Positions 6,353-52,135 of a stretch of DNA of 64,000 bases are shown here, piece after piece. The notes under the pieces are model-generated. The model did not search any database. It was given only the letters and a program-made list of their open reading frames with translations, and was not told the origin of the DNA. Numbering within the stretch: the stretch's first letter is position 1; every line of letters begins with the position of its first letter. The stretch is taken from the NCBI RefSeq assembly GCF_003058055.1, contig NZ_QBTZ01000001.1, positions 3,986,001-4,050,000 of the forward strand. Reading direction: 5' to 3'. This stretch comes from Acidovorax sp. 107 (GTDB lineage Bacteria; Pseudomonadota; Gammaproteobacteria; Burkholderiales; Burkholderiaceae_C). A program made the translations under genes and the position numbers.

Positions 6353-6391
6353 GTTTGGGCGCCTCGTGCCCACAATGGGACAATCACGCCC

Positions 6392-17164: not shown

Positions 17165-17205
17165 GGCTATATAAAAATGATAGCAATCAAGGCATGTTGC
17201 ACTAA
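17165..17205 (+). repeat. Copy of the dispersed repeat upstream of the COG2509 gene
   Basis: GCTATATAAAAATGATAGC at 17167-17185, then AATCAAGGCATG and GCACTAACGC. The GCTAT...ATAGC half matches the element's AT-rich half. This intergenic region (17048-17248) otherwise shows nothing recognisable apart from the AT-rich stretch, which could also serve as promoter for the minus-strand oxidoreductase. Confidence 0.5.
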
Positions 17206-17248
17206 CGCATCCGGCGGTTTTGGCTGAATTTTTGTTGTCAGGACGTAT

Positions 17249-24550: not shown

Positions 24551-24607
24551 GAACTCCCTCCAGAGTGCTGCGCAGTGTAGCAGCGGCGCGGGACCAGGAA
24601 ATTCAAG

Positions 24608-24666
24608 TCAAAAAGGCCTGAAGCGCTTGTTTTTAAAGCGCTGGAAGCTATGTATTTAGGAGCATG
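24608..24666 (-). repeat. Dispersed imperfect palindrome, well-formed intergenic copy
   Basis: Minus-strand reading: GCTCCTAAATACATAGCTTC, CAGCGCTTTAAAAA, CAAGCGCTTCAGG, CCTTTTTGAC. The two AGCGCTT/AAGCGCT blocks can pair to form a hairpin. It lies between the RluF-like gene and the DUF898 gene, which are both on the minus strand. It could act as an attenuator or terminator-like hairpin for neither or either; no direct evidence. Confidence 0.65.
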
Positions 24667-24717
24667 CGTGTGCCGCGCCCATGTGGGTGGGCGGGGCGCA
24701 GCGCGGCGGAGGACGCG

Positions 24718-25545: not shown

Positions 25546-27285
25546 TCAGTTGTTGCCGGGTTGCAGCGAGCGGATGCGCTCCACATGCGCCAGCAGCGAG
25601 CGCTGGGCCACCGGCCACATGCGCTGCGGCACGTCGTCGTAGGCTTGCCGCACCCAGTCGTCCATGCTGCCTTGTGGCAGCGCCTGCATGGCGGCCAGCA
25701 CCTTGGCCTCGCGCGCCAGGCGGTGGGCCTTGAGCTTGGCGATGGCATGGCGGGCGCCGAGGACAGGGCCCCCCAGCACGTAGCCGTGCGCGGGCAGGAT
25801 GAACTCCACGCCGTGCTCGGCGCAGGCCGCGTCGAGCCGGTCCAGCGAATCCAGGTAGTCGGCCATGTTGCCGTCTGGCGGGTCGATCACGGTGGTGCTG
25901 CCGTTCAGGATGTGGTCGCCGCTGAACAGCAGCGCGTCTTCCACCAGCAGCATGCACAGGTGGTTGGCGGCATGGCCGGGGGTGTGGACCACCTGCAGGG
26001 TGTGGGTGATTTTGCCCTCAGGTGCCAGTCCTTCAAGCACGAGCAGCTCATTATTTTGTAGCGCCCGGTCGGGGGTGAACTGGCTGGCCGCGCGGGCCGT
26101 GGGGGCGGACGGCAGGCCCAGGACGGGCGGGCGCGCCTTGCCGGCCTGCACGCACATCGCCTGCAGCGGCGCGGCGCCGGGGGAATGGTCGGCGTGCGAG
26201 TGGGTGCACACAATCATGCGGATGTCGCCCCCCGCTGCACGCCAGAGCTTGTCCAGGTGCTCGGTATCGGCCGGGCCGGGGTCGATGGCGATGAAGCCCG
26301 TGGCCGGGTCGCCCACCAGGTAGCTGTTGGTGCCGGGGCCGGTCATCACACCGGGGTTGGGCGCGGTCAGGCGCATCACGTTGCGCAGCAGCGGCACTGG
26401 GCGTTCGGTCTGCCAGTCCAGCGGGTGCACGATCTGGCCGTCGGGGCAGACCAGCGCCAGCTCGCCAAACGGCATGTCGTCTTCCATGTAGCGCGCTTCC
26501 TTGCCCGCCAGCAGGCCTGCGCGCGGGCAGCTCACCCACAGGGGCTGCTCGTGCGCCACGGCGTCCAGCACCGCCTGGGTGCTGGCAAATTGGGCCAGGC
26601 GCTGCAGCGTGCGGATGGTGGGGAAGATCATGAAGAACTGCCCCGCCTCGTGCCGCGCCAGCGCGTCGGCCGGGCGCACCCACACGGGCTCGAACTGCTC
26701 GGCCTCGTCGGCCACGGGCTCCTGGCCCTCGGGCATGCGGGCCACCAGAAAGGGCACCTCAAAGCGGCGGGCCAGGTCGCGGTCGGCCGTCCAGTGGGCC
26801 AGCAGGTACACCCCATCGGCCGCCAGGCGCAGTCCGCGTGCGGTGCACTGCGCGGCAAACGGCTGGTGGCGGTCGATGGCGGCAATGTCCTGCGCGTCGG
26901 CCATCTGCCCCTGGCGGGGGCCCTCGGCATGGCGTGCCAGCAGCACGCCCAGTTCTTCAAAACTCTCGCGGATGGCGGCAATCGCCTGGGTGAGGTGCAG
27001 GTCGCTCTGCGTGGCGCGCCGGTCGGCGGCCGCGTGGGTGGCGGGTGCAGCATCCAGCGCATCAATGCCCCCGCCGGGGAACACATAGGCGCCAGGCGCA
27101 AAACTGGCCGTGGCCGAGCGCCGGGTCATGAGGACTTCGAGCCCGCCGCCGTCAGGCACATCGCGCAGCAGCAGCACGGTGGCGGCGGGGCGGGTGGCTA
27201 CGGGTTCGCGGAGGGGGTGGAGTTGTTGGCTGGAGCGGGGCATCGGGCCATTATCAGCACTGGCAGGCTGTACAGCCGTCGGCAT
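25546..27285 (-). CDS. NUDIX hydrolase-metallo-beta-lactamase fusion protein
   Basis: About 579 residues. The N-terminal half (about 20-280) is NUDIX-like: ATVLLLRD, FPGGGIDALD and the core REsFEELGVLLA of the Nudix box. The C-terminal half (about 300-540) is an MBL-fold hydrolase of the LACTB2/glyoxalase II type, with CTHSHADHSPGAA, HTPGHAANH, FSGDHILNG and LPAHGYV. An acyl-CoA or nucleotide-linked substrate is plausible for such fusions but not shown. The ATG at 27285 is used; an ATG at 27243 is also possible, and a GATAAT box just before it weakens certainty. Residues near ALQNNELLVLEGLAPEGK are encoded by a dispersed repeat copy. Confidence 0.8.
   Translation of the reverse strand: MPTAVQPASADNGPMPRSSQQLHPLREPVATRPAATVLLLRDVPDGGGLEVLMTRRSATASFAPGAYVFPGGGIDALDAAPATHAAADRRATQSDLHLTQAIAAIRESFEELGVLLARHAEGPRQGQMADAQDIAAIDRHQPFAAQCTARGLRLAADGVYLLAHWTADRDLARRFEVPFLVARMPEGQEPVADEAEQFEPVWVRPADALARHEAGQFFMIFPTIRTLQRLAQFASTQAVLDAVAHEQPLWVSCPRAGLLAGKEARYMEDDMPFGELALVCPDGQIVHPLDWQTERPVPLLRNVMRLTAPNPGVMTGPGTNSYLVGDPATGFIAIDPGPADTEHLDKLWRAAGGDIRMIVCTHSHADHSPGAAPLQAMCVQAGKARPPVLGLPSAPTARAASQFTPDRALQNNELLVLEGLAPEGKITHTLQVVHTPGHAANHLCMLLVEDALLFSGDHILNGSTTVIDPPDGNMADYLDSLDRLDAACAEHGVEFILPAHGYVLGGPVLGARHAIAKLKAHRLAREAKVLAAMQALPQGSMDDWVRQAYDDVPQRMWPVAQRSLLAHVERIRSLQPGNN
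26010..26064 (-). repeat. Dispersed repeat copy inside the NUDIX-MBL gene
   Basis: On the minus strand GCTACAAAATAATGAGCTG is identical over 19 bases to a copy at the 3' end of murC. A looser second half follows (CTTGAAGGACTGGCACCTGA, then GGGCAAAAT). It is in frame in the MBL half. Confidence 0.7.
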
Positions 27286-28191: not shown

Positions 28192-29073
28192 ATGCAGATT
28201 CGCTTCACCAAAATGCAAGGCGCGGGCAACGATTTTGTGGTGCTCGACGAGACCCAGGGCCGCCTGGGGCTGAGCACGGCCCAATACCGCTTTCTGGCAG
28301 ACCGACACTTCGGCGTGGGGGCCGACCAGATTCTCACAGTGCGTCCTTCGCCGGGTGACGGCATCGATTTTGAATACGTGATCCACAACGCCGACGGCGG
28401 CGAGGTGGAGCAGTGCGGCAACGGCGCGCGCTGCTTTGCGCGCTTTGTGCACGACCGGGGCCTGTCGGGCAAGGACACCCTCCGCGTGCAGACCAAAAGC
28501 GGCGTGATTGCGCCCCGCCTCACAGGCGACGGCCGCGTCACGGTGGACATGGGGCGGCCCGAGTTCGACCCCGCCAAGGTGCCGTTCGACACCACCGGTC
28601 TCACGCCTGTGCAGCAGGGTTTGGGACAAAAATGGCCGGTAGCGCTAGAGGAATATGCCTCTGGCGCTTCTGTTTTGGTAGCAGTAGCCTCCATGGGCAA
28701 CCCGCATGCGGTGCAGCTGGTGGACGACGTGGACACCGCTCCCGTCGCGCAGACCGGGCCGCTGATCGAGCGCCATGCGCGCTTTCCCCAGCGGGTGAAC
28801 GCGGGCTACCTGCAGATCGTGGACCGCTCCCATGTGCGCCTGCGCGTGTTTGAGCGCGGCGCGGGCGAAACCCTGGCCTGCGGCACCGGAGCCTGCGCGG
28901 CCGTGGCCAGCGGCATCCGGCTGGGCCTGCTCGACCCCGAGGTGCATGTGGACACGCGTGGCGGCCGCCTCACCATTGCCTGGAGCGGCCAGGAGGCTGA
29001 TTCCGTTTTCATGACCGGCCCGGCCACCACGGTGTTCGAAGGCCAGATCGACATTCCCGACACGCTCGTATGA
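28192..29073 (+). CDS. dapF: Diaminopimelate epimerase
   Basis: 293 residues. Converts LL- to meso-diaminopimelate for lysine and peptidoglycan. Both catalytic cysteines are present: [16 protein letters not shown] (first Cys near 75) and [12 protein letters not shown] (second near 230). GNDFVVLDE is at the N-terminus, SMGNPHAV in the middle. The region just before SMGNPH ([19 protein letters not shown]) is encoded by a copy of the dispersed repeat, in frame. A CATAAT box sits 12 bases before the ATG. First gene of dapF-DUF484-xerC, as in E. coli. Confidence 0.96.
28626..28691 (-). repeat. Dispersed repeat copy inside dapF
   Basis: Minus-strand reading: GCTACTGCTACCAAAACAG, AAGCGCCAGAGGC, ATATTCCTCTAGCGCTA, CCGGCCATTTTTG. 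It contains an inverted pair (AGCGCCAGAGGCATAT with ATATGCCTCTGGCGCT on the other strand) and is visibly AT-richer than the gene around it. It adds about 15-20 codons without breaking the frame. Confidence 0.7.
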
Positions 29074-29814: not shown

Positions 29815-30783
29815 ATGTCTGAAAAGCCTCCCGCCCCGGACCCCCACGTCCTGCGCTACCTGGAGCATGTGCGCGTCGAAAAGCGGCTGGCCGCGCGCAC
29901 GCTCACGCTCTACACGCTGGACCTTGAAAAGCTGGCGCAGTTTGCGGCTGGCGTGAATGTGCCGATGCTGCAGTTGCAGACCGCTCACATCCGCCGCTTT
30001 GTCGCGCAGATGCACAGCGGCGGGCGCAGCGGGCGGGGCATTGCGCTCATCCTCTCGGGCTGGCGCGGGTTTTTCATCTGGGCGGGGCGGCAGGGGCTGA
30101 TCCCGCACAACCCGGTGCAAGACGTACGTGCCCCCAAGGCCCCCAAACCCTTGCCCAAGGCGCTGGGCGTGGACGACGCCGTAAGGCTCGCAGAATTCGA
30201 CAACACCGGCGCCGACCCCTGGCTGGAGGCGCGCGACGCCGCCATGGTGGAGCTGCTGTACGGCTGCGGTCTGCGCGTGGGTGAACTCGCGGGGCTGGAC
30301 GCCATCCCCAATGCCGACACCCAGCGCCAGGGCCGCGGCTGGGTGGACCTGCAGGCGGGCGAAGCCCATGTGTTCGGCAAAGGCAGCAAGCGCCGCAGCG
30401 TGCCGGTGGGCGCCGCCGCCACGGCCGCGCTGCAGGCATGGCTGCAGCTGCGGGCCACACCGTTTGGTGGCGAAGGCTCTGCGCGGCTCGATACCGCCCT
30501 GTTTGTCGGCCAGCGTGGCAAGCGGCTCACGGCCCAGTCGATCTGGCTGCGCCTGCGCCAGCGCAGCCAGCTGGCAGGGCTGACCACGCCGGTACATCCG
30601 CACATGCTGCGCCACTCGTTCGCCAGCCACCTGCTGCAAAGCAGCGGCGACCTGCGCGCGGTGCAGGAGCTGCTGGGCCACGCCAACATCACCACTACGC
30701 AGGTCTATACGCGGCTCGACTTTCAGCACCTGGCCAAGGTGTACGACGCCGCCCACCCGCGTGCGCGGAAGAAGCCCCCGTAA
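29815..30783 (+). CDS. xerC: Site-specific tyrosine recombinase XerC
   Basis: 322 residues. Resolves chromosome dimers at dif together with XerD and FtsK. An N-terminal SAM-like core-binding domain (about 8-95), then the catalytic domain. The catalytic pentad is readable: Arg in GCGLRVGELAG near 152, Lys in VFGKGSKRRSVPVG, HMLRHSFASHLL (His and second Arg), LLGHANITTT (His), and the nucleophile Tyr in QVYTRLD near 297. It follows DUF484 by 55 bases. XerC rather than XerD is assigned from the gene neighbourhood. Confidence 0.93.
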   Translation: MSEKPPAPDPHVLRYLEHVRVEKRLAARTLTLYTLDLEKLAQFAAGVNVPMLQLQTAHIRRFVAQMHSGGRSGRGIALILSGWRGFFIWAGRQGLIPHNPVQDVRAPKAPKPLPKALGVDDAVRLAEFDNTGADPWLEARDAAMVELLYGCGLRVGELAGLDAIPNADTQRQGRGWVDLQAGEAHVFGKGSKRRSVPVGAAATAALQAWLQLRATPFGGEGSARLDTALFVGQRGKRLTAQSIWLRLRQRSQLAGLTTPVHPHMLRHSFASHLLQSSGDLRAVQELLGHANITTTQVYTRLDFQHLAKVYDAAHPRARKKPP

Positions 30784-30903
30784 GCCGCTGGGCTGCTTTC
30801 CGGGAAGGCGAAGCAACCGCCCGCCCGCCGGGCGGAACCAAGTGGCCTCCCGGCGTCTCCGAGCACACTGGCGCCTGCTGTGGAGCGCCCTGGAGTTGTC
30901 GTC

Positions 30904-31572
30904 ATGCTGCTGAACTGGATCAAATCGAACCGATGGTTCATCGTGCTGCTGTTGTGCTTTGGCGTCTTTCGCACCGCCGTGGCCGACTGGAACCCCATCC
31001 CTTCGGGCTCGATGCGGCCCACGCTGCTGGAGGGGGACGTGGTGCTGGTCAACCGCCTGGCCTACGACGTGAAGCTGCCGCTCACGGACGTGATCCTGGC
31101 GCACATCGACGACCCGCAGCGCGGCGATGTGGTCACCTTCTCTTCGCCGCAGGACGGCACCCGCCTGATCAAGCGCATTGCCGCGTTGCCCGGCGACACG
31201 GTGGAAATGCGCAACGAGGTGCTCTACATCAACGGTCAGGCGGCCGAATACGAGATGCCCGATTCTGTGCAGGAGCCAGCGTTGCTGGGCCACACGCTCA
31301 CTGCCACGCGCTGGACGGAGCGCCTGCTGGGGCATGAGCGCCGCGTGCAGTGGCTGCAGGGCGTGACGGCCCGCAGCAGCTTCGATCCGGTGCAAGTGCC
31401 CGAGGGCGAATATCTCGTGTTGGGTGACAACCGGGACAACAGTGCCGACTCCCGCTACATCGGCCTGGTGCCGCGCCACCTGCTCATCGGGCAAGCGCAC
31501 CGCGTGCTGCTGTCGGCCGATGTGCTGGGCCATTGGGCGCCGCGCCTGGAGCGCTTCGGCAAGGCGCTGTAG
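30904..31572 (+). CDS. lepB: Signal peptidase I
   Basis: 222 residues. One N-terminal membrane anchor (about 10-26), then the S26 catalytic domain. The catalytic Ser is in PSGSMRPTL (S36), the Lys in RLIKRIAALPGD (about 90), and the box E motif is GDNRDNSADSR. This is shorter than E. coli LepB (324), with one membrane span only. It is not next to lepA or rnc as the main lepB usually is, so it may be a second, accessory signal peptidase. The ATG at 30904 starts the family N-terminus MLLNWIKSNRWF. Confidence 0.88.
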   Translation: MLLNWIKSNRWFIVLLLCFGVFRTAVADWNPIPSGSMRPTLLEGDVVLVNRLAYDVKLPLTDVILAHIDDPQRGDVVTFSSPQDGTRLIKRIAALPGDTVEMRNEVLYINGQAAEYEMPDSVQEPALLGHTLTATRWTERLLGHERRVQWLQGVTARSSFDPVQVPEGEYLVLGDNRDNSADSRYIGLVPRHLLIGQAHRVLLSADVLGHWAPRLERFGKAL

Positions 31573-31630
31573 CCCGGCCCGGCCAGCGCGCCGACGACCT
31601 CGCTCATGGTGGTTTGACCGGCACGGTGCA

Positions 31631-31765
31631 TCAGGGCGGACCTGGCTTCCACGGAGGTTGAACACCTTGGGGAAAGCGGTCGTCGATGATGGAGTGAAAA
31701 GCCGCATCGGGGCCGTGAGCCAGCGCTATGGACAGCGGGCCCATGATGCCCATGAGCAGCGCCAT
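31631..31765 (-). CDS. Possible small hydrophobic protein downstream of cheW
   Basis: A 44-codon reading frame beginning MALLMGIMGPLSIALAH and ending QPPWKPGPP. The same frame upstream of the ATG (LEDFDPAPTGFGL) also looks protein-like, so a longer product from a TTG or a degraded larger gene is possible. No good ribosome site. I do not recognise it. The rest of the 252-base region between lepB and cheW shows no terminator or other feature. Confidence 0.3.
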   Translation of the reverse strand: MALLMGIMGPLSIALAHGPDAAFHSIIDDRFPQGVQPPWKPGPP

Positions 31766-31824
31766 CAAGCCAAAGCCAGTGGGAGCCGGGTCGAAATCTT
31801 CCAGTCGTAGCAGTGCAGGGTGGC

Positions 31825-32352
31825 TCAGTGGCAGGGGGCCGGGGTCTCGCCCGCCACCGACTTGGCCAGGAATTTCTCGATGTCGAGCAGGATCAGCATG
31901 CGCTGGCCGACCGAGCCGATGGCCAGCAGGTGCTCGGGCCTGACGTTGCCGCGCAGGGCGGGCACGGGGCGCAGCTGCTCGCGCTCCAGCGTGAGCACGT
32001 CGGACACGCCGTCCACCACCACGCCCACCGTCCGCTGGCCGATGTGCAGCACGATCACCACCTTGAGGTGGTCGTACCGCACGGCGGTCTGCCCCAGCTT
32101 CAGGCGCAGGTCCAGGATGGGCACGATCACGCCGCGCAGGTTCATCACGCCCAGCCACTCGCCCGTGGCATTGGCGATGGTGGTGGGCTTTTCGTACGAC
32201 CGGATCTCCTGCACCCGCAGGATGTCCACCCCGTATTCCTCGTTGCCGATCTGGAAGGTCAGAAATTCGCGAAGCTCGGTCATCACGGACTGGGCCGTGC
32301 CGGGCGCGGGGGCCAGGCGGGTGGTGCTGGGGGCTGTGGCGGAGGCGGCCAT
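31825..32352 (-). CDS. CheW-type chemotaxis coupling protein
   Basis: 175 residues. A complete CheW-like SH3-pair domain (about 26-165): FLTFQIGNEEYGVDILRVQEI, MNLRGVIVPILDLR (shown in part) and VVVDGVSDVL. It links chemoreceptors to the CheA kinase. It is encoded alone, divergent from rlmI, not in a che operon, so it is either an extra coupling protein or serves a non-flagellar pathway. The strong AT-rich promoter upstream suggests substantial or regulated expression. An N-terminal ~25-residue Ala/Thr/Pro tail is unusual but minor. Confidence 0.88.
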   Translation of the reverse strand: MAASATAPSTTRLAPAPGTAQSVMTELREFLTFQIGNEEYGVDILRVQEIRSYEKPTTIANATGEWLGVMNLRGVIVPILDLRLKLGQTAVRYDHLKVVIVLHIGQRTVGVVVDGVSDVLTLEREQLRPVPALRGNVRPEHLLAIGSVGQRMLILLDIEKFLAKSVAGETPAPCH

Positions 32353-32384
32353 TGATTGTTTGATAAAAATGATAATTTACGTAA

Positions 32385-32413
32385 TTTTATCGATCACAAA
32401 TCATATTTGTCAA
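32385..32413 (-). promoter_or_regulatory. Sigma-70 promoter of cheW with an operator-like inverted repeat
   Basis: On the minus strand TTGACA (32408-32413), a 17-bp spacer, and ATAAAA (32385-32390). A perfect inverted repeat ACAAAT-CAT-ATTTGT at 32396-32410 overlaps the -35 and spacer. The palindrome TTACGTAA (32377-32384) lies at the expected start point. The whole 32353-32435 stretch is strongly AT-rich compared with the genome around it. Confidence 0.65.
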
Positions 32414-32595
32414 ATATCAAATTCCTAAATGACAGATCGGTCGCGTGCATTCGGGGGCGAAGAGCGTGAAGTGGCCCTTGGAGCCTGTGAAAGAGGGCCG
32501 GCCGGACGCGGTCGTGACGGGGCGGTACCTCGTTGGCTGCGTTTTTCCCTCGCCAAGGGGCTCTGCCGCGTCCGCCAGCCCGCACAATCCGGGGC

Positions 32596-33831
32596 ATGAA
32601 AACCCTTCGACTTCGCGCGGGCAAAGAGCGCTCGCTGTTGCGCCGCCATCCCTGGATCTTTGAATCGGCCATCGCCAAGGGCGGCGGCGACAGTGGAGAG
32701 ACCGTGCGCGTCGAGTCGCACGAAGGCCAGTTTCTGGCTTGGGCGGCCTACAGCCCCAGCTCGCGCATCCGAGCACGGGTGTGGAGCTTTGACGAGGCGC
32801 AGCGCATTGATGCTCCGTTTTTTATAGCTGCTTGCGCACGTTCCATCATCGCCAGAGCCCGTTTTGATGTGCAAAGCGACGGTGTGCGCCTGGTGCACGG
32901 CGAGTCCGACGGCCTGCCCGGCCTCATCGTGGACCGCTATGGCGATACGCTGGTGGCGCAGTTCACCAGCGCGGGCACCGAGCGCTGGAAGGGCGTGATT
33001 GCCGATGCGCTGCTGCGCGAGACGGGCCTGACCAAACTGTATGAGCGTTCGGACGCCAGCGTGCGTTCGCTGGAAGGCCTGGAGCCCGCCACCGGCTGGC
33101 TGCGCGGCGGGCCCACGGGCGCGGCGGGCGATGGCGAAGGGCCGCCGCTGGAGCTGACGATCCGTGAGCACCAGTGGCGCCTGACCCTCAACATTGCCGA
33201 GGGCCACAAGACGGGCTTTTATCTGGACCAGCGCGACAGCCGCAAGCGCTTTGCCGACTACACGCAGCGCCTGGGCTTCAAACATGTGCTCAACTGCTTT
33301 TGTTACACCGGCGGCTTCAGCGTGGCAGCGCTGGCGGGCATGCGTGCGGCGGGCGCAGCCGCCGATGGCCATGTGACGTCCATTGACTCGTCCGGCCCCG
33401 CCTTGGAGCGCGCCCGTGCGCACGTGGCGCTCAACGGGTTCGACCCGAACCGCGCAAGCTTTATGGACGCTGATGTGAACGCCTCGCTGCGCCAGTTTCT
33501 CAAGGAGGGCCAGCGCTTCGATGCCATCATCCTGGACCCGCCCAAGTTCGCGCCCACGGCGGCCCACGCCGAGCGGGCAGCCCGCGCTTACAAGGACATC
33601 AACCGGCTGGCGCTGCAACTGCTGTCGCCTGGCGGGGTGCTGTTCACCTTCTCCTGCTCGGGCGGTATCAGCGCCGACCTGTTCCACAAGATCGTGGCGT
33701 CGGCCGGCGCAGATGCCGGAGTGGACGGCTACATCCTGGAGCGCCTGGGCGGCGCGCCCGACCACCCGATGACGCTGGAGTTTCCGGAGGGCGAGTACCT
33801 CAAGGGGCTGGTGGTGATGCGCAAGGGGTGA
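32596..33831 (+). CDS. rlmI: 23S rRNA (cytosine-C5)-methyltransferase, RlmI family
   Basis: 411 residues. An N-terminal PUA domain, about 1-85 (MKTLRLRAGKERSLLRRHPWIF), a central EEHD-like domain, and a SAM-dependent methyltransferase domain (about 215-400) with LNCFCYTGGFSVAA (motif I) and DAIILDPPKFAP (motif IV). The ATG at 32596 matches the family start. Residues near 74-92 (APFFIAACARSIIARARFDV) are encoded by a dispersed repeat copy lying in frame between the PUA and next domain. The open frame upstream of the ATG is not homologous. Confidence 0.9.
   Translation: MKTLRLRAGKERSLLRRHPWIFESAIAKGGGDSGETVRVESHEGQFLAWAAYSPSSRIRARVWSFDEAQRIDAPFFIAACARSIIARARFDVQSDGVRLVHGESDGLPGLIVDRYGDTLVAQFTSAGTERWKGVIADALLRETGLTKLYERSDASVRSLEGLEPATGWLRGGPTGAAGDGEGPPLELTIREHQWRLTLNIAEGHKTGFYLDQRDSRKRFADYTQRLGFKHVLNCFCYTGGFSVAALAGMRAAGAAADGHVTSIDSSGPALERARAHVALNGFDPNRASFMDADVNASLRQFLKEGQRFDAIILDPPKFAPTAAHAERAARAYKDINRLALQLLSPGGVLFTFSCSGGISADLFHKIVASAGADAGVDGYILERLGGAPDHPMTLEFPEGEYLKGLVVMRKG
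32817..32872 (+). repeat. Dispersed repeat copy inside rlmI
   Basis: The first 22 bases (32817-32838, core TTATAGCTGCTTGCGCA) are identical to the intergenic copy between hslV and hslU at 38566-38587. The second half CGCCAGAGCCCGTTTTGAT resembles the other copy's TGGCGCTACAGCC and TTTGAT. It is in frame. Confidence 0.8.
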
Positions 33832-33943
33832 ACGTTCCGGCGTCAGCAGGGGCTTGACAGCCTCGGTACACTGAAAAAGATGCCCCTGGGTGGGGCACTG
33901 CGCCGCGCAGCGCAAGTATTTGATTCCCTTGAAAGACAGATTT

Positions 33944-35005
33944 ATGGCACTGATCCCCGTTACCATCCTCACCGGCTTTCTGGGCTCTGGCAAAACCACC
34001 TTGCTCAAGCGCCTCTTGAGCGAAGCCCACGGCCAGAAGATCGCCGTGATCGAGAACGAATTCGGCGAAGAGAACATCGACAACGACATCCTCGTGACCG
34101 AGTCCAAGGAGCAGATCGTGCAGATGAGCAATGGCTGCATCTGCTGCACCATCCGCGAAGACCTGCGCGAAACCCTGCAGTTGCTGGCCGCCAAGAAGCG
34201 CAAGGGCCTGCTCGACTTTGATCGCATCGTGATCGAGACCACCGGCGTGGCCGACCCCGGCCCCGTGGCCCAGACCTTCTTCATGGACGAAGAGATCGCC
34301 GAAACCTATCTGATCGACTCGATCATCACGCTGGTGGACGCCAAGCATGCGCCCCAGCAGCTCAATGACCGCCAGGAGGCACGCCGCCAGGTGGGTTTTG
34401 CGGACCAGATCTTCCTGTCCAAGACCGACCTGGTGTCCCAGGATGAGACCGAGGCGTTGATCCATCGCCTGAAGCACATGAACCCGCGCGCGCCCATCAA
34501 GGCCGTGCATTTTGGCGAGGTGCCGCTCAAGGAGGTGCTGGACCTGCGGGGCTTCAATCTCAATGCCAAGCTGGACATTGACCCCGACTTCCTGAAGGAG
34601 GAAGGGGAGGGGCACGACCACCACGACCATGACCACGAGCACGGCGAGCACTGCAGCCACCCTTCGCACCAGCACGACCACGGGCATGGCCACCACCATC
34701 ACCACGACGATGACGTGAAGAGTTTTGTCTACCGTTCGGACCGCCCGTTCGACCCGGCCAAGCTCGAAGACTTCCTCGGGGCCATCGTCAACATTTACGG
34801 CCCGCGCATGCTGCGTTACAAAGGCGTACTGAATATGAAGGGCACTGAGCGCAAGGTGATCTTCCAGGGCGTGCACCAGCTCATGGGCAGTGACCTGGGC
34901 CCCCAGTGGGCCGAGGGCGAGCCGCGCACGAGCAAGATGGTGTTCATTGGCATTGATCTGCCCAAGGACATCTTTCTGCAAGGGCTGGAGCAAAGCCTGG
35001 TCTGA
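33944..35005 (+). CDS. COG0523-family GTP-binding metallochaperone (CobW/YjiA/ZigA-like)
   Basis: 353 residues. P-loop GFLGSGKTT at 11-19, the metal-binding motif GCICC near 64-68, the G3-type VIETTGVADPGP and the guanine-specificity loop SKTDL. A histidine-rich loop of ~35 residues follows at about 223-258 (EGHDHHDHDHEHGEHCSHP then SHQHDHGHGHHHHHDDD), and a CobW C-terminal domain ends the protein. The family delivers Zn, Co or Ni using GTP. No Zur site or cobalamin gene is visible nearby, so the metal is undecided; zinc is the best guess from the CxCC plus His-rich loop. Confidence 0.9.
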   Translation: MALIPVTILTGFLGSGKTTLLKRLLSEAHGQKIAVIENEFGEENIDNDILVTESKEQIVQMSNGCICCTIREDLRETLQLLAAKKRKGLLDFDRIVIETTGVADPGPVAQTFFMDEEIAETYLIDSIITLVDAKHAPQQLNDRQEARRQVGFADQIFLSKTDLVSQDETEALIHRLKHMNPRAPIKAVHFGEVPLKEVLDLRGFNLNAKLDIDPDFLKEEGEGHDHHDHDHEHGEHCSHPSHQHDHGHGHHHHHDDDVKSFVYRSDRPFDPAKLEDFLGAIVNIYGPRMLRYKGVLNMKGTERKVIFQGVHQLMGSDLGPQWAEGEPRTSKMVFIGIDLPKDIFLQGLEQSLV

Positions 35006-35182
35006 TCTGCTTGCCGGTTTTGAGGGGCGATGGACCCCGATTTGTGTTGTATCTGCAACGTTTCCGTTTGCGTGAGCTCAGGTCGATACAATCGCGCCCC
35101 GGTAAAACCACCCAAGGCTTGCCACCAGTCCCGGGCCGTGAGAGCGGCCAAGGGCCCGCCCGTACTGCGAGGAGACCAGGAA

Positions 35183-35983
35183 GTGAAAGCCGATACCAGC
35201 AAACCCAAGGGGGCCACCAAGGTAACCCCTGCCGCGGCAAAAAGCGCCGCCGCCCCAGCGGCATCCAAAGTTGCTGCGAAGGCCACTGCCAAAACTGCTG
35301 CGGCGCCCAAGGTGACCGCACCCCCTGCCGCCGTGGCGGCACCTGCTGCGGCGCCCGCGCTGCAAGCGGGCTCGCAGGTACCCGTGCGCACAACCCGGCC
35401 TTCTTCCCGATTGGCCCAATTGACCGTACCATCCATGGCACAGACGGTGGCCTCCACAGCTGCCAAAGCCAGTTACCAACACACCATGCCCACGACCGCG
35501 CAAGCGCAGCCCACTTACATGGCTGCCAAAAAAGACCCCAAGCTGGCGAACAACTGGAAAACCAAGTCCGTTGCCGAGCTGACCGACGCTGAAGTCATGG
35601 CCATGCCCGACAGCGAGTATATGAACGAAAAGCAGATGGCGTTCTTCCGTCTCAAGCTCGTTCAGCTCAAGCAGGACATCCACAACAGTGCCGGTGAAAC
35701 CACCGAACACCTGCGTGAAGACACGGTGGTCGTGCCCGACCCGGCCGACCGCGCCACCATCGAAGAAGAACACGCGCTGGAGCTGCGCACCCGCGACCGC
35801 GAGCGCAAGCTGCTCAAGAAGATCGAGCAGTCGATCGCCCGCATCGACGCAGGTGACTATGGCTACTGCGACGAGACCGGTGAGCCCATTGGTGTCGGCC
35901 GCCTGATCGCGCGCCCCACGGCCACGCTGTCGCTGGAAGCGCAGCAGCGCCGCGAACTCAAGCAGAAGATGTTCGGAGATTGA
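35183..35983 (+). CDS. dksA: RNA polymerase-binding protein DksA with long N-terminal extension
   Basis: 266 residues from a GTG preceded by GAGGAG. The C-terminal ~140 residues are DksA: a coiled-coil region (YMNEKQMAFFRLKLVQLKQD ... RERKLLKKIEQSIARI) and the zinc-finger-like end YGYCDETGEPIGVGRLIARP. Only one of the four finger cysteines remains (C, then Thr and Ser/Glu positions), as in low-cysteine DksA forms. The first ~115 residues are Ala/Lys/Pro/Thr-rich and probably disordered; an internal ATG (MAQTVAST, at about 35434) could give a shorter form. A TACAAT box lies at about 35086-35091. It mediates the stringent response with ppGpp. Confidence 0.88.
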   Translation: MKADTSKPKGATKVTPAAAKSAAAPAASKVAAKATAKTAAAPKVTAPPAAVAAPAAAPALQAGSQVPVRTTRPSSRLAQLTVPSMAQTVASTAAKASYQHTMPTTAQAQPTYMAAKKDPKLANNWKTKSVAELTDAEVMAMPDSEYMNEKQMAFFRLKLVQLKQDIHNSAGETTEHLREDTVVVPDPADRATIEEEHALELRTRDRERKLLKKIEQSIARIDAGDYGYCDETGEPIGVGRLIARPTATLSLEAQQRRELKQKMFGD

Positions 35984-36030
35984 ACAGGCTGCGGCCTGTT
36001 GATCCACGCGCGCACACTGCACCCTGAGCC

Positions 36031-37770
36031 ATGAGCAAGGAAGAAACCACCCCTGGCGGCCTGCTATCGAAGGTGGTGCGGTTCGTGAAAAATCCGACCG
36101 TGAACTGGACGGAGCTCGACTCCATCCAGGACGACCGGGAGAGCCAGTACAGCAAGCAGATGCTCAAGGAGATGATCGAGCGCAAGCGCCGCAACGACTT
36201 CGTGCGGCGCCGTGAGTTCGATCAGCTGCGCAAGCTGCGCCAGCGCGAGGTGCTGCAGGGGCAGCGCGTGGAAGACGCCGCCGGTCGTCCTTCGTTCTTC
36301 CAGAGCAGCATGGCGTCACCCGACGAACGGGCCGTCACGCTCAAGAAGATCGATGAGATCGAAGCGCAGATGTCCCAGCAGTGGTGGAAGAGCAAGCAGG
36401 GCGCCGACGCCCCCACCCAGCCCGGCGTGATGCCCGATTCCAGCACGGAAGCCTCTTCGGAAGAGCACGCCCGTGCCTATGCACCCACGGTGCCCGGGAG
36501 CCTGTCGGCCCCGCTGGACACCAAGCCCGCCGTTCAGCCCCTGTTTGCCGATGACAGCATGGCCATTGGCCGCTTTGGTGGCACGGACGCCACCATGCTG
36601 CCGGGCAGCACCCCACCCGTCGAAGCATCCTTCAGCCCTGCGGCACCTACGGCTGCGCCCGCGCCCGCATTCGAACCGGAGGAATTCGTGCACGAACCCG
36701 ACCTTGAAGAAGCCGCGATCCGGTTTGCCAATGGTGACCATGCAGGGGCCGAGTCCGGCCTGCTGGAAGTGCTGGCCCAGCACCAGCAGGACGACCCCGC
36801 CCAGCAGCTCGAAATCTGGATGACGCTGTTCGACCTGTATCGGGCCACCGGGCGGCACGACGGTTTCGACACCCTGGCCATCGACTTTGCCGCGCAGTAT
36901 GGCCGCTCGGCCCCGCTGTGGTTCTCCATCCCGGCGCAGCTGGGCCTTGTGGTGGAGGCTGCACCGGCTGCCGCCGAACCCGCCCCCGCCATGCGCCGCG
37001 ATTTCAGCTGGAACGCCCCGCCCACCGTGGCCGTGTCTTCGGTGGCGGCCCTGCAGGCCTCGCTGGCCCGTGCGGCATCGCCCTGGACGCTGTCCTGGTC
37101 GCGCCTCACGGCCATCGACGAGGCTGCGGTGCCCCTGTTGGCCGACCAGGTCAGCCTGTGGGCCGACCGGGATGTCCAGATTGTGTTTTCAGGGGTGGAA
37201 AAGCTCCATGCTCTGCTGGATGCCAAGACCCAGTCAGGCGACCGCTCCAACAGCCCCGAATGGTGGCGCTTGCGCATGGCCGCCATGCGCCTCATGGGCA
37301 AACCCGACGAGTTTGAACTGGTGGCGCTGGACTACTGCGTGACCTACGAGGTCTCTCCGCCCTCCTGGGTATCGCCGCGCTGCGGATATTCGGACAATGA
37401 GGGTGTGTCGTCTGGCTCGGCCCCCCTGGCGGTCGACAGCGACTTTGTGGCGTCCGATCTGGGTGAATCGTCGATTTCCCCTGTGGATGCCGGGCCCATC
37501 GCACAGCTCAGTGGCCATATCGATGGCGATGCCACGCCCCTGCTGCAGCCGTTCGAGGTGCACCTCAAGCCCGGTGTGCCACTGACCATCGCCTGCGACA
37601 AACTGATCCGGGTGGACTTTGCTGCCGCGGGCTCCGTGCTCAACTGGGCGGCCGAGCAACAGGGTCACGGCCATGTGATCCAGTTCCACAACCTGCAGCG
37701 ACTGGTGGCGATCTTCTTCAACGTGATCGGCATCAACGAGCACGCCTGGGTGGTGCCCCGAAAGAACTAG
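36031..37770 (+). CDS. STAS-domain-like protein of unknown function
   Basis: 579 residues. Positively charged N-terminus with a helical, Arg/Lys/Gln-rich segment (about 45-75), a Pro/Ala/Ser-rich linker (about 125-215), and a TPR/FimV-C-like helical segment near 222-300 (FANGDHAGAESGLLEVLAQH). Two regions look like STAS folds, about 340-395 and 490-579 (IAQLSGHIDGDATPLLQPFE; ... FHNLQRLVAIFFNVIGIN). No membrane segment or signal. It sits 47 bases after dksA and before hslV, with a terminator after it, so it is probably co-transcribed with dksA. I cannot assign a function; a scaffold or lipid/regulatory STAS role is speculative. Confidence 0.7.
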   Translation: MSKEETTPGGLLSKVVRFVKNPTVNWTELDSIQDDRESQYSKQMLKEMIERKRRNDFVRRREFDQLRKLRQREVLQGQRVEDAAGRPSFFQSSMASPDERAVTLKKIDEIEAQMSQQWWKSKQGADAPTQPGVMPDSSTEASSEEHARAYAPTVPGSLSAPLDTKPAVQPLFADDSMAIGRFGGTDATMLPGSTPPVEASFSPAAPTAAPAPAFEPEEFVHEPDLEEAAIRFANGDHAGAESGLLEVLAQHQQDDPAQQLEIWMTLFDLYRATGRHDGFDTLAIDFAAQYGRSAPLWFSIPAQLGLVVEAAPAAAEPAPAMRRDFSWNAPPTVAVSSVAALQASLARAASPWTLSWSRLTAIDEAAVPLLADQVSLWADRDVQIVFSGVEKLHALLDAKTQSGDRSNSPEWWRLRMAAMRLMGKPDEFELVALDYCVTYEVSPPSWVSPRCGYSDNEGVSSGSAPLAVDSDFVASDLGESSISPVDAGPIAQLSGHIDGDATPLLQPFEVHLKPGVPLTIACDKLIRVDFAAAGSVLNWAAEQQGHGHVIQFHNLQRLVAIFFNVIGINEHAWVVPRKN

Positions 37771-37786
37771 CGGGACTTTCCGCCAT

Positions 37787-37813
37787 GGGCCGCTCTGCGG
37801 CCCTCTCTTTTTT
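37787..37813 (+). terminator. Rho-independent terminator after the STAS-like gene
   Basis: GGGCCGC, loop TCT, GCGGCCC, then TCTCTTTTTT: a perfect 7-bp stem with T-run. It separates the dksA unit from hslVU. Confidence 0.85.
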
Positions 37814-37933
37814 GACCCTTCGGGGTTTCCTGGCAAAGCGGCCTGACCGCTACGCAGAGCGATCGGGACAGGGCGCCGCCCGTCTGGGGCGGCTGGCTTG
37901 CAAAATGGGCGGTAACCCCCATCTGCCGCAGCT

Positions 37934-38500
37934 ATGGACTCATCACAAGACAACCATCCGGTGTTCCACGGCACCACCATCCTCAGTGTGCGTCGCCAGA
38001 CGCCTTCCGGGCTCCAGGTCGCCATTGGCGGCGACGGGCAGGTCACGCTGGGCAACATCGTGGTCAAGGGCACGGCGCGCAAGGTGCGCAAGCTTTACCA
38101 CGGCAAGGTGCTGGCCGGCTTTGCCGGGGCCACGGCGGATGCCTTCACGCTGTTCGAGCGTTTCGAGGCCAAGCTGGAAAAGCACCAGGGCCACCTGACG
38201 CGCGCTGCCATCGAACTCACCAAGGACTGGCGTACCGACCGCGTGCTGCGCCGCCTCGAGGCCATGCTGGCCGTGGCCGACGCCAGCGCGTCGCTCATCA
38301 TCACCGGCAATGGCGACGTGCTGGAGCCCGAGCAGGGCATCGTGGCGATTGGCTCCGGGGGCGCCTATGCGCACTCGGCGGCCAAGGCGCTGCTGGTGAA
38401 CACCGAGTTGTCCGCTGAAGAGATCGTGAAGAAGTCGCTCGAAATCGCGGGCGAACTCTGCATTTACACCAACATGAACCACACCATCGAGACGCTCTGA
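37934..38500 (+). CDS. hslV: ATP-dependent protease subunit HslV
   Basis: 188 residues. Ntn-hydrolase protease ring of HslUV. The nucleophile Thr follows a 13-residue leader ([21 protein letters not shown]), which must be removed by autoprocessing, unlike the E. coli form where only Met is removed. Conserved [33 protein letters not shown] and the C-terminal [10 protein letters not shown] are present. It is followed by hslU after 132 bases. Confidence 0.95.
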
Positions 38501-38565
38501 GCGTACGGCGGTGGAACCGGCCCCAGGCTGGCCGCACGGTCAGCCCCTGATGGGCTGATTGCTCT

Positions 38566-38622
38566 GTTTTTTATAGCTGCTTGCGCATGATTCACTGGCG
38601 CTACAGCCCCATTTGATACCAG
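38566..38622 (+). repeat. Dispersed repeat copy between hslV and hslU
   Basis: The 22 bases 38566-38587 (core TTATAGCTGCTTGCGCA) are identical to the copy inside rlmI. Then TGATTCACTGGCGCTACAG, CCCCATTTGAT. It lies in the hslV-hslU gap and ends about 10 bases before the hslU start codon, so it is transcribed in the mRNA and could fold just ahead of the hslU ribosome site. Confidence 0.8.
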
Positions 38623-38632
38623 GAAGACCTGT

Positions 38633-39958
38633 ATGTCGTCCATGACCCCCCAGGAAATCGTCTCCGAGCTGGACCACCACATCGTGGGCCAGGCCAGCGC
38701 CAAGCGCGCCGTGGCCATTGCACTGCGTAACCGCTGGCGCCGCCAGCAGGTCGAGGGCAGCCTGCGCCAGGAGATCACGCCCAAGAACATCCTCATGATC
38801 GGCCCCACCGGCGTGGGCAAGACCGAGATCGCACGCCGCCTGGCCAAGCTGGCTGATGCGCCCTTCATCAAGGTCGAGGCCACCAAGTTCACCGAGGTGG
38901 GCTACGTGGGCAAGGACGTGGACTCCATCATCCGCGACCTGGCCGAGATGGCCGTCAAGCAGACGCGCGAGACCGAGATGAAGAAGGTGCGCGCCCGCGC
39001 CGAAGATGCTGCCGAGGAGCGCATCCTGGACGTGCTGATCCCCCCGGCCCGCGCCGCAGCAGGCACCGAGCCTGTCGCTGACAACACGGCTCGCCAGGTC
39101 TTTCGCAAGAAGCTGCGCGAAGGCGCGCTGGCCGACAAGGAGATCGAGATCGACGTGGCCGAGGCCCGTCCGTCGCTTGAGATCATGGGCCCGCAGGGCA
39201 TGGAAGAGATGACCGAGCAGCTGCGCGGTATGTTCAGCCAACTGGGGCAGGACAAGCGCAAGACCCGCAAGCTCAAAATCGCCGAGGCCTTGAAGCTCAT
39301 CACCGACGAAGAGGCTGGCAAGCTGGTCAACGAAGAGGAAATCAAGACCCGCGCTGTGCAGAACGCTGAGCAGAACGGCATCGTCTTCATCGATGAGATC
39401 GACAAGGTGGCCGCGCGGCAGGAAAGCAGTGGCGCGGACGTGTCGCGCCAGGGCGTGCAGCGCGACCTGCTGCCGCTGGTGGAGGGCACCACGGTGTCCA
39501 CCAAGTACGGCATGATCAAGACGGACCACATCCTGTTCATCGCGTCGGGCGCCTTCCACCTGTCCAAGCCCAGCGACCTGATTCCAGAGCTGCAGGGGCG
39601 TTTCCCGATCCGGGTGGAACTGGAATCGCTGTCGGTCAAGGACTTCGAAGCCATCCTCACGCAGACCCACGCGTCGCTGGTCAAGCAATACCAGGCGCTG
39701 CTGGCCACCGAGGGCGTCACGCTGGAGTTCGCGCCCGAGGGCATCACCCGCCTGGCGCGCATCGCGTTCGAGGTGAACGAGCGCACCGAGAACATCGGCG
39801 CGCGCCGCCTGTCCACGGTGATGGAGCGCCTGCTGGATGAGGTGAGTTTTGACGCCACGCGCCTGTCTGGCCAGACCATCACCATCGACGCCGCCTACGT
39901 CGATGCGCGCCTGCAGACCCTGAGCCAGGACGAGGACCTGTCGCGCTACATCCTGTGA
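38633..39958 (+). CDS. hslU: HslU ATPase subunit of HslUV protease
   Basis: 441 residues, standard length. AAA+ unfoldase that feeds substrates to HslV. N-terminal [16 protein letters not shown], Walker [10 protein letters not shown] near 57, the I-domain insert (about 110-245), Walker [11 protein letters not shown] near 250, sensor region [18 protein letters not shown] stretch, and the C-terminal tail ending DEDLSRYIL, which inserts between HslV subunits. ATG with no strong Shine-Dalgarno other than AGGAAG at 38619-38624, partly contributed by the repeat edge. Confidence 0.96.
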
Positions 39959-40014
39959 CCACTCGGTCAAGCCTTGAGAGGTCACTTTCATAGGCCTCTC
40001 TAAGTGCTTCTTTT

Positions 40015-40065
40015 TCAACGACTTTTGACGTTTTAGTGGCTGAAAAAACGCATCTAAGTCGTTGA
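40015..40065. promoter_or_regulatory. 51-bp interrupted inverted repeat upstream of mraZ
   Basis: Outer arms TCAACGACTT (40015-40024) and AAGTCGTTGA (40056-40065) pair perfectly over 10 bp. Inner arms CGTTTT (40029-40034) and AAAACG (40045-40050) add a second stem. It lies 56 bases after hslU and upstream of the mra promoter. It could be an hslU terminator without a clean T-run, a regulatory site, or an RNA structure. Together with the operator below it makes up most of the 252-base gap 39959-40210. Confidence 0.6.
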
Positions 40066-40095
40066 TTTCATTGAAAAGTTTGTGGGACACCCCCC

Positions 40096-40123
40096 TTGTT
40101 CGGTGTGCTTTTCCTGCTACAGT
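40096..40123 (+). promoter_or_regulatory. Candidate mra (dcw) promoter
   Basis: TTGTTC at 40096-40101, 16-bp spacer, TACAGT at 40118-40123. The -10 overlaps the first operator repeat, a natural arrangement for repression by MraZ. Assigned by eye only. Confidence 0.5.
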
Positions 40124-40160
40124 GCAAAAAAGTGCAATTAAGTGGTGAAAAGTGCCCTCA
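40121..40160 (+). promoter_or_regulatory. MraZ operator: four direct repeats on a 10-bp period
   Basis: Four consecutive 10-base blocks begin AGTGC, AGTGC, AGTGG and AGTGC at 40121, 40131, 40141 and 40151. MraZ is known to bind direct repeats of a GTG/TGGG-type core spaced one helical turn apart upstream of its own gene. The array ends 51 bases before the mraZ start codon. Confidence 0.8.
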
Positions 40161-40210
40161 AGGTCCGGTTCTGGACCTCCGAGGCGCAAAACCGAACTGG
40201 GAATCTGTCC

Positions 40211-40639
40211 GTGTTTCAAGGTGCCTCGTCGCTGAGTCTCGATGCGAAGGGTCGGCTGTCCGTGCCGACCCGGCATCGTGACGTCCTCGCGGCCACGGCA
40301 TCGGGTCAGCTCACCATCACCAAGCACCCGCACGGCTGCCTCATGGTCTTCCCTCGCCCTGAATGGGAGAAGTTCCGCGAACGCATTGCCCAGTTGCCCA
40401 TGTCCGCCCAGTGGTGGAAGCGCATCTTCCTGGGCAACGCCATGGATGTAGACATGGACGCCACCGGCCGTGTGCTGATTTCCCCCGAGCTGCGCGAAGC
40501 CGCCGGCATCTCCAAAGACACCATGCTGCTGGGCATGGGCAACCATTTCGAACTCTGGGACAAGGCCACCTACGACGAGCAGGAAGCCAAGGCCATGCAG
40601 GGCGAGATGCCGGATGTCTTCAAGGACTTCTCCTTCTGA
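40211..40639 (+). CDS. mraZ: Transcriptional regulator MraZ
   Basis: 142 residues. Two tandem SpoVT/AbrB-like domains, about 1-60 ([20 protein letters not shown]) and 75-130 ([20 protein letters not shown]). It represses its own dcw promoter. The GTG at 40211 was chosen because it starts exactly at the family N-terminus ([11 protein letters not shown]). An in-frame codon at 40142 would place the start inside the operator and add 23 non-homologous residues. Confidence 0.93.
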
Positions 40640-40647
40640 GGCGCGCT

Positions 40648-41574
40648 GTGACATCCCCCTTGCAACACACCACCGTTCTGCTCAACGAGGCCGTGGACGC
40701 TCTTCTCGGCGGCGCAGGCCCGGAGCCCGCGGGCACCTGGGTCGATGCGACCTTCGGACGCGGCGGGCACTCCCGCCTCATCCTGCTTCGGCTGGGCCCC
40801 CAGGGGCGCTTGGTGGCCTTTGACAAGGACCCCGAAGCCATCGCCGAAGCAACGCGCATCACCGATGCGCGTTTTTCCATTCGGCACGAAGGTTTTCGCC
40901 ATTTGGCCGACCTGCCACCCGCCAGCGCTGCGGGCGTGCTGATGGACCTGGGTGTGAGCTCGCCCCAGATCGACAGCCCCGAGCGGGGCTTCAGTTTCCG
41001 TTTTGACGGCCCGCTGGACATGCGCATGGACACCACGCGCGGTGAAAGCGTGGCCGATTGGTTGGCCACGGCCGAAGTCGGTCAGATTGCGGAGGTGATA
41101 CGTGACTACGGTGAAGAACGGTTTGCTGGCCCCATTGCAAAGGCGATTGTTGCTCGGCGCGAAGAACGGGGTCCTCTTGCAACCACCGCAGAACTGGCCG
41201 ACCTCGTGGCTGGCGCGGTCAAAACCCGCGAGCCGGGCCAGAACCCTGCAACGCGCACATTTCAAGCTCTTCGGATTTTCATCAACGCCGAGCTTGAAGA
41301 GCTGCAACAGGCGCTAGAGGCCAGTCTCTCGGTGCTGCAGCCGGGTGGGCGGCTGGCGGTCATCAGCTTTCACTCGCTTGAAGACCGCATCGTCAAGCAG
41401 TTCATCGCCAAGCACTCCAAGGAGGTGTATGACCGCCGCGCGCCGTTTGCCGCGCCGCAGGCGATGAAGCTCGTCGTGCTCGACCGCATCAAGCCCAGTG
41501 CGGCCGAGGTCGAGGCCAACCCCCGCTCGCGCAGCGCCATCATGCGCGTGGCCGAGCGCACGGCGGTCGTCTGA
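40648..41574 (+). CDS. rsmH: 16S rRNA (cytosine-1402-N4)-methyltransferase RsmH (MraW)
   Basis: 308 residues from a GTG 8 bases after mraZ. SAM-dependent methyltransferase acting on C1402 of 16S rRNA. N-terminus [18 protein letters not shown], motif [17 protein letters not shown], motif [16 protein letters not shown], and the C-terminal [17 protein letters not shown] with the family-typical [17 protein letters not shown] and the GTG start agree with the normal MraW length. Confidence 0.95.
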
Positions 41575-51068: not shown

Positions 51069-52135
51069 GCAAGCAAAAGACCGCACTCATCATGGCCGGT
51101 GGCACCGGTGGCCACATCTTCCCCGGCTTGGCCGTGGCCGAAGAGCTGCGTACGCGTGGCTGGCGCGTGCATTGGCTGGGCGCGCCCGGCAGCATGGAGT
51201 CGCGCATCGTGCCGCAGCACGGCTTTGCGCTGGAACTCATCGATTTCTCGGGTGTGCGCGGCAAGGGGCTCGTCACGCTGGCCCTGCTGCCGCTGCGTCT
51301 GTTGCGCGCGTTCTGGCAGGCGCTGCAGGTCGTGCGCCGTGTGAAGCCCGACGTGGTGGTAGGCCTGGGCGGCTACATCACCTTTCCGGGCGGGATGATG
51401 GGCGTGCTCGCGGGCAAGCCTCTGGTGCTGCACGAGCAGAACTCCGTGGCCGGCATGGCCAACAAGGTACTGGCCGGTGTGGCCGACCGGGTGTTCACGG
51501 CCTTCCCCCATGTGTTCAACAAAGGTCAGTGGGTGGGCAACCCCCTGCGCACCGCCTTCACGCAGCAGCCCGGCCCGGCCGAGCGGTTTGCGGGCCGCAC
51601 CGGCCCCCTGCGCCTTCTGGTGGTGGGCGGCAGCCTGGGCGCGCGTGCACTCAACGAGATCGTGCCCCAGGCCATCACCCTCATGCCTGCCGAACAACGA
51701 CCCACCGTGGTCCATCAAAGCGGAGCGACGCAGATCGATGCGCTGCGCGCCAACTACGCCGCCGCCGGGGTCGAGGCAGAGTTGACGCCTTTCATCGACG
51801 ACACCGCCAGCGCGTTTGCAGCGGCCGACATCATCGTTTGCCGGGCGGGGGCGAGCACCGTCACCGAGATCGCGGCCGTGGGCGCCGCATCCATCTTTGT
51901 GCCCTTCCCGTCGGCCGTGGACGACCACCAGACCACCAACGCGCAGTTCCTGGTGAATGCGGGCGGCGGCTGGCTGGTGCAGCAGCGCGACCTGACGCCG
52001 CAAGGGCTGTCTGAAATGCTATTGAAATTGGAGCGATCCACGCTTGTGGATGTAGCGCTCAAGGCCAAAAACATGCAAAAAATCAACGCCACCCGCGAGG
52101 TGGTGACTGCCTGCGAGGAGTTGGCCCAACCATGA
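51065..52135 (+). CDS. murG: Undecaprenyl-PP-MurNAc-pentapeptide GlcNAc transferase MurG
   Basis: 356 residues. GT28 enzyme at the inner face of the membrane that makes lipid II. N-terminal [43 protein letters not shown] and the UDP-GlcNAc region [20 protein letters not shown] are present. The C-terminal helix region (about 315-340, [19 protein letters not shown]) is encoded by a copy of the dispersed repeat. Confidence 0.96.
52015..52078 (+). repeat. Dispersed repeat copy inside murG
   Basis: TGCTATTGAAATTGGAGC, GATCCACGCTTGTGGAT with a small inverted repeat (ATCCAC/GTGGAT), then GTAGCGCTCAAGGCC and AAAAAC. The order of blocks (GCTATT..AATT, CGCTTG, AGCGCT, AAGGCC, A-run) matches other copies. 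In frame, near the C-terminus. Confidence 0.7.

Follow-up and report, generated by a model that had tools for sequence, protein, structure and literature searches.

A chromosome-wide 67-bp motif, a putative DNA recognition site, includes the repeat copies of rlmI and the hslV-hslU gap in Acidovorax sp. 107

The similar sequences inside rlmI and between hslV and hslU of Acidovorax sp. 107 belong to a motif family that is real, unusual and maintained, and that represents a putative recognition site, for which functions resembling DNA uptake signals and functions in chromosome organisation are both live candidates. The reading we favour, and to which we give about an even chance of being right, is that these copies are two of roughly 700 chromosomal 67-bp DNA recognition motifs, whose likeliest role would be that of a nucleoprotein site, architectural or topological in kind. 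Sites are common to related genomes, conserved bases are held in place, synonymous ones included, and certain relatives show a near-total loss of the motif along with erasure of the rlmI copy. Current mobility of the family is not supported. Coordinates below refer to the window, the whole 64-kb stretch of DNA analysed, unless a genome and contig (G000:C1 for the chromosome of Acidovorax sp. 107) are named.

A first-pass annotation of the window reported 22 bases shared by the two copies, followed by the same order of blocks. Alignment within the window bears this out: 32817-32838 and 38566-38587 are identical, and 41 of 56 bases agree between 32817-32872 and 38566-38621. The profile matches extend further, to 32804-32879 and 38551-38622. 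Across the genome, TNATAGCTGCTTGCGC occurs nine times, against zero in the reversed reading, and ATAGCTNCNNGCGC, allowing at most one mismatch, matches 405 times where its reversed form matches 115 times. An iterated profile search of 1.264 Mb, comprising three 400-kb blocks of the genome plus the window, recovered 184 copies at E <= 0.01, with no copy in reversed sequence, a count far above chance, as the first-pass annotation had anticipated; extrapolated to the 4.92-Mb chromosome, this gives about 700 copies. Clustering along the chromosome was considered and rejected, as counts per 20 kb (mean 2.88, variance 3.17, 60 bins) are near Poisson. The second contig, 190 kb in length, has no copy at E <= 0.01 by profile search, and one weak match at E 0.038.

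The motif comprises 67 sharply bounded positions, profile columns 11-77, with almost no information in the flanking columns. Its conserved blocks are GCT, ATAGC, GC-AT, AGCGCTA, GGCC and A/T runs, with AA and TT interchanging within the runs (columns 65-67 and 21-23); three GC anchors stand in register in 151 of the 184 copies, and mean GC of the copies is 0.44. Dyad symmetry is weak and centred on column 45. A 10.8-bp period of A+T is visible, but it is non-significant (p 0.095 and 0.24) and weaker than peaks at 7.8 and 24 bp, and helical phasing was therefore rejected. The information content, about 56 bits, exceeds what a single simple site would require for binding, which counts against the favoured reading. 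Copies also resemble one another slightly beyond what the profile imposes, with a mean nearest-neighbour identity of 0.704 versus 0.646 after column shuffling, which leaves room for past duplication; an ancient amplification followed by selection is a possible source of both the excess information and the similarity. Separately, two copies 3.8 kb apart, at about G000:C1 2386855 and 2390613, are 99% identical and probably reflect one segmental duplication. Columns 40, 46, 48 and 49 are correlated and define two sub-types, GCGCAT...CTAGCGC and GCGCTT...TAAGCGC, the latter alone being able to pair as a longer hairpin.

The profile search recovers eleven copies in the window. Outside predicted genes, in addition to the hslV-hslU copy, copies lie at 6289-6361 (minus strand, 21.3 bits), 17170-17231 (plus, 37.7 bits) and 24596-24669 (minus, 48.3 bits). 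Within genes, a copy at 7951-8024 (minus, 33.1 bits) is antisense in a gene with a DUF3025 domain by Pfam, another at 26002-26067 (minus, 31.6 bits) lies in a gene of the NUDIX/metallo-beta-lactamase fold by Pfam, and a third at 28615-28690 (minus, 39.5 bits) is antisense in dapF (Pfam DAP_epimerase). Weak in-gene copies, all on the plus strand, are found at 44021-44081 (20.5 bits), at 48525-48591 (27.1 bits) in a Mur ligase gene by Pfam, and at 52008-52082 (24.9 bits). The hslV-hslU copy itself (38551-38622, plus strand, 46.1 bits) begins 50 nt beyond hslV (37934-38500, plus strand; a proteasome-type subunit, with Pfam Proteasome over 37961-38500) and ends 10 nt ahead of the start of hslU (38633-39958, plus strand; an AAA ATPase, Pfam AAA_2). 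The strongest in-gene copy recorded, at 56.6 bits, is antisense in a purL-like gene with FGAR-AT domains, at about G000:C1 2358713-2358788 (L157:18713-18788).

By genes called with a home-made codon-usage caller, 145 of the 184 copies lie in gaps between genes, 38 lie inside predicted genes, and one lies at an edge. Gap copies divide into 54 in convergent gaps, 10 in divergent gaps, and 40 and 41 in the two orientations in co-directional gaps, while in-gene copies are split between the same strand (22) and the opposite strand (16). In co-directional gaps, a copy in either orientation lies a median of 12.5-13 nt from the stop codon that precedes it, and in convergent gaps the median distances to the two stop codons are 11 and 26 nt. 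Such placement, with medians of 11-13 nt after stop codons, is what might be expected of an element acting as RNA, or of a bidirectional transcription terminator, and some measures lean the same way. Folding z-scores for the 184 copies average -1.33, with 29% below -2; in a stem set by the dyad, 61.0% of cells are paired, compared with 26-41% when the stem is slid and 59.4% after shuffling, with slight covariation; and separate terminators are predicted in 9 of 42 convergent gaps that contain a copy, versus 29 of 59 otherwise. Against this stand the lack of any consensus pair from RNAalifold on 89 copies, a first stem that shows no covariation, copies placed midway in housekeeping genes, and a terminator difference that becomes non-significant in length-limited sets (p 0.06-0.19). 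No strand bias is seen, and the lack of orientation preference makes a double-stranded DNA signal likelier than an RNA signal. We consider a role at the RNA level very improbable, and rejected structure and termination as explanations on the grounds of the missing consensus pair, the absent first-stem covariation and the non-significant terminator difference. Membership in an Rfam family was rejected as well, since covariance models applied to 30000-41000 gave four weak, sub-threshold matches, none of them on a motif copy.

Rickettsia palindromic elements are inserted in frame, add residues to proteins, and occur in both coding and non-coding DNA. The first-pass annotation likened the rlmI repeat to these, as a mobile element inserted in frame that adds residues between two domains of RlmI. 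The likeness extends to the presence of coding and untranslated copies within one family, of which the rlmI and hslV-hslU copies are examples; it ends at the gain of residues, as the motif adds none to RlmI. The rlmI reading frame (32599-33831, plus strand) encodes a protein of the 23S rRNA methyltransferase RlmI family according to Pfam and to a match at E 3e-102 with E. coli RlmI (3c0k). Its motif copy (32804-32879, plus strand, 35.8 bits) spans roughly codons 69-94, lying after the PUA-like domain (Pfam PUA_3, ending at residue 64) and before the methyltransferase domain. Among 80 named rlmI loci, 62 have a motif copy scored by the profile at E <= 0.05, in Acidovorax, Rhodoferax, Giesbergeria, Simplicispira, Curvibacter and Diaphorobacter among others, and in the 79 relatives that could be read (all but L059) the stretch is equally long with or without the motif. 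For 18 RlmIs taken from other members of the order, 17 of them from other families and all from a set of 24 loci of which the script left six unread, length at this stretch differs by -4 to +2 residues, and E. coli RlmI is two residues longer. With length this constant, the motif looks to have been introduced into a segment that RlmI already had, leaving its length unchanged. The residues IAACA, found at the motif stretch, occur in none of the 18, so the annotation's concern that unrelated RlmIs might carry the same residues did not materialise.

Two other genes with copies are in agreement as regards match length: purL matches are 12 nt shorter in the nearest motif-poor genomes G031 and G039 (in G005 the gene is split between contigs), dapF matches are 6 nt shorter in motif-poor G005, G031 and G039, and other genera without a motif match differ by -57 to +24 nt for purL and by -42 to 0 nt for dapF.

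Plain synonymous identity does not single out the rlmI stretch. It is 0.653 versus 0.602 in the set of rows with the motif, ranking 42 of 391 windows, and 0.596 versus 0.605 over all 80 rows, ranking 211. Conservation of rare codons was used in its place. In 71 rows with the motif (the window included, nine motif-less rows dropped by eye and L059 removed for a bad frame), one arginine is encoded by AGA in 69 and one isoleucine by ATA in 54. In the rest of rlmI these two codons have frequencies of 0.3 and 0.5 per 1000, respectively.

Comparison with two close relatives shows that copies stay where they are. For the 73 copies of one 400-kb block, G004 (about 92% identical to Acidovorax sp. 107 in aligned DNA) has 58 present, two absent (a single palindromic site found on both strands) and 13 untestable, so that 58 of 60 testable sites are common to both genomes; in G007 (about 86% identity) one is absent and 24 are untestable, leaving 48 of 49 testable sites in common. 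In the reverse direction, 55 of 68 G004 copies are present in Acidovorax sp. 107, with three absent and 10 untestable, and 58 of 90 G007 copies are present, with nine absent and 23 untestable. Four of these nine absences involve no change in length. One site differs by -95; differences of this size, about 91-95 bp, are rare among the relatives and lie in gaps between genes. At about G007:C1 1148222, where G007 has a copy, the gap is about 95 bp shorter in both Acidovorax sp. 107 and G004 and contains a terminator-like hairpin and a T run. The empty sites and added residues expected of in-frame insertion like that of the Rickettsia elements are not what these comparisons show, and few presence/absence differences, constant RlmI length and constrained coding copies together argue against the mobile in-frame insert that the first-pass annotation had proposed.

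Constraint within the copies is applied base by base. Substitution rates were computed for copies scoring 25 bits or more that the search recovered in the partner genome as well, a choice that should introduce little bias because nearly all testable sites are present in both genomes. Between orthologous copies of Acidovorax sp. 107 and G007, conserved columns are substituted at 13 of 190 positions and variable columns at 111 of 277 (Fisher 3e-17). At third codon positions inside genes, conserved columns differ at 2 of 49 positions, whereas the flanking codons differ at 156 of 507 (1.7e-5); the corresponding counts are 3 of 36 versus 120 of 382 for G007 and G004 (0.003), and 2 of 37 versus 56 of 389 for Acidovorax sp. 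107 and G004, which is non-significant (p 0.21). Base-by-base constraint that includes synonymous sites is unlike what unselected inserted DNA would show, and such site-by-site constraint at the DNA level is the behaviour looked for in a site of the nucleoid or topology type. Small gaps are fairly frequent in copies between genes, a point against the favoured reading: three genome comparisons show at least one in 14 of 41, 20 of 32 and 22 of 37 copies aligned, but in-gene comparisons in only 2 of 33; for copies lying between genes, the gap rate is below that of their flanks.

Conserved repeats of this number could also be an old mobile family of the REP type that no longer moves and in which gene conversion maintains the similarity among copies. 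High copy number with placement mostly 3' of genes, as in REPs, together with the excess information and slight excess similarity described above and the few sites that differ by about 91-95 bp, are consistent with such an origin. Variable columns differ at 0.40 between Acidovorax sp. 107 and G007 where flanking gap DNA differs at 0.30, a faster change that conversion could cause and that leaves it some room. Per-copy divergence, however, is graded and tracks the flanks (r 0.42-0.64) rather than being all-or-none, which favours point mutation over wholesale conversion; presence/absence differences are few, and in-gene copies show no insertion in RlmI. The genome has one RAYT-like Y1_Tnp gene, but no core match with at most two mismatches lies within about 1.5 kb of it, and Y1_Tnp genes occur in motif-rich and motif-poor genomes alike (37 of 40). 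Membership in the REP/RAYT group was rejected on those last two grounds, and the broader REP-like origin appears unlikely. A degenerate motif-like stretch was noted by eye just downstream of the Y1_Tnp gene (L180, G000:C1:4165331-4165618).

The motif is widespread within the genus and nearly missing from part of it. Among 40 genomes of the genus, 35 are motif-rich (34 with at least 125 matches, and G012, which is 75% complete, with 117) and five are motif-poor: G002 with 15 matches, G005 and G031 with five each, G039 with four and G030 with two. Across the wider family, matches occur in 41 of 120 genomes: at least 41 per genome in 21, between 36 and 40 in four, and 1-30 in the remaining sixteen. 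We cut rlmI loci for 30 genomes of the genus, three other motif-rich genomes having a full match that was left uncut and five motif-rich genomes having no full-length match. All 27 motif-rich genomes with a cut locus score for the motif in rlmI, at 14-41 bits. In G005, G031 and G039 the motif has no score, while their residues, FFIAACARAIIARARFDVQ, are nearly the same and are encoded by GC-rich codons; these three are tied to A. soli-type loci (L066-L069) by rlmI sequence only. The residues look like the fossil of a motif once present, a reading that follows from the absence of those residues in the sampled outgroups. No RlmI match was obtained from the other two motif-poor genomes, G002 and G030, and the rlmI match of G026 (L209) contains one in-frame stop.

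A single shared trans-acting requirement would account for joint loss more simply than would hundreds of independent losses. Under the model we propose, a putative clade-specific trans-acting factor would read the motif as double-stranded DNA, selection or a drive process dependent on that losable factor would hold the long recognition site, and loss or change of the factor would leave sites to decay by point mutation. We put forward, as a tentative account somewhat short of an even chance, that a clade-specific system keeping roughly 700 copies of this exceptionally long 67-bp motif was strong enough to rewrite parts of housekeeping genes, rlmI among them, by substituting bases and not by inserting them, and that the losing relatives are natural knock-outs in which sites have decayed and the residues persist as a fossil.

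The drive process could be the one that maintains uptake signals such as DUS and USS, in which a motif that favours uptake of self-DNA is spread by recombination of the DNA taken up and is retained at permissive positions, also inside genes, without having to serve the cell. The motif is orientation-neutral, lies mostly between genes, and has no copy on the second contig at E <= 0.01; its interchange of AA and TT in A/T runs resembles the shape-read A/T tracts of USS, and a drive would account for rewritten coding sequence (both points drawing on portions of PMC7811141). Known uptake cores, however, are 9-12 bp as against 67 bp here, and the motif is about tenfold sparser than a DUS spacing of roughly one per kb, by the figures in the part of PMC2397512 used here. 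The uptake gene product ComEC was found in 37 of 40 genomes of the genus, including four of the five motif-poor ones (none was found in G005, a fragmented assembly), and its loss was rejected as the cause of motif loss. An uptake signal is, in our judgement, improbable but to be taken seriously; an architectural or topological function would be the likeliest, though only somewhat ahead of it by the comparisons made here.

Taken together, the length of the motif, its copy number, its base-by-base constraint inside and between genes and its near-disappearance from some genomes of the genus point to a chromosome-wide system for reading DNA, so far unrecognised, in Comamonadaceae-type bacteria. 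The putative factor could be sought by comparing the motif-rich with the motif-poor genomes of Acidovorax, a contrast already at hand, and the rlmI copy cautions against taking every repeat within a gene for an insertion.

In the literature searched, mostly outside subscription journals, no description of a 67-bp family of this kind was found; the letters of the motif gave no match, and for shorter strings no title among the matches listed concerned a repeat in these bacteria. REP and BIME elements with their RAYTs, as described in sections of PMC2817692, resemble the motif in having hundreds of copies, mostly by gene 3' ends, in either orientation and with imperfect inverted symmetry. They differ in being 20-40 bp hairpins with a GTAG-type head, whereas the motif is 67 bp, shows no such head and has no conserved structure; rayt genes are flanked by REPs (PMC2817692), whereas no copy flanks the Y1_Tnp gene, and the motif copies, unlike REPs, are constrained in place and inside genes. 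A term search of PMC3733652, on REP/RAYT, gave no match. The Beta-proteobacterial repeat element (BRE), in the portion of PMC3110155 consulted, likewise occurs in Bordetella and Comamonadaceae, mostly between genes and in some cases within coding sequences, but it is about 90 bp long, 69% GC in Bordetella, tandem, and present at no more than 29 per genome; a 67-bp motif of 44% GC with hundreds of copies per genome, 184 of them in 1.264 Mb, is set apart from it by description. DUS and USS, in extracts from PMC7811141 and PMC2397512, share with the motif an over-represented, orientation-neutral sequence in permissive places, retention in place, scarcity in acquired DNA, and a GC core with A/T tracts. 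Their cores are short, 9-12 bp with 1,465-2,206 copies, in contrast to 67 bounded positions and roughly 700 copies here. The binding motif of E. coli DNA gyrase, as given in part of PMC6379681, is 130 bp, degenerate and phased by GC at 10.75 bp, whereas the present motif is 67 bp, sharply bounded, without significant phasing, and nearly lost in some genomes of its genus. Both are nevertheless long, symmetric, double-stranded DNA motifs with sites enriched downstream of transcribed units (PMC6379681, same part).
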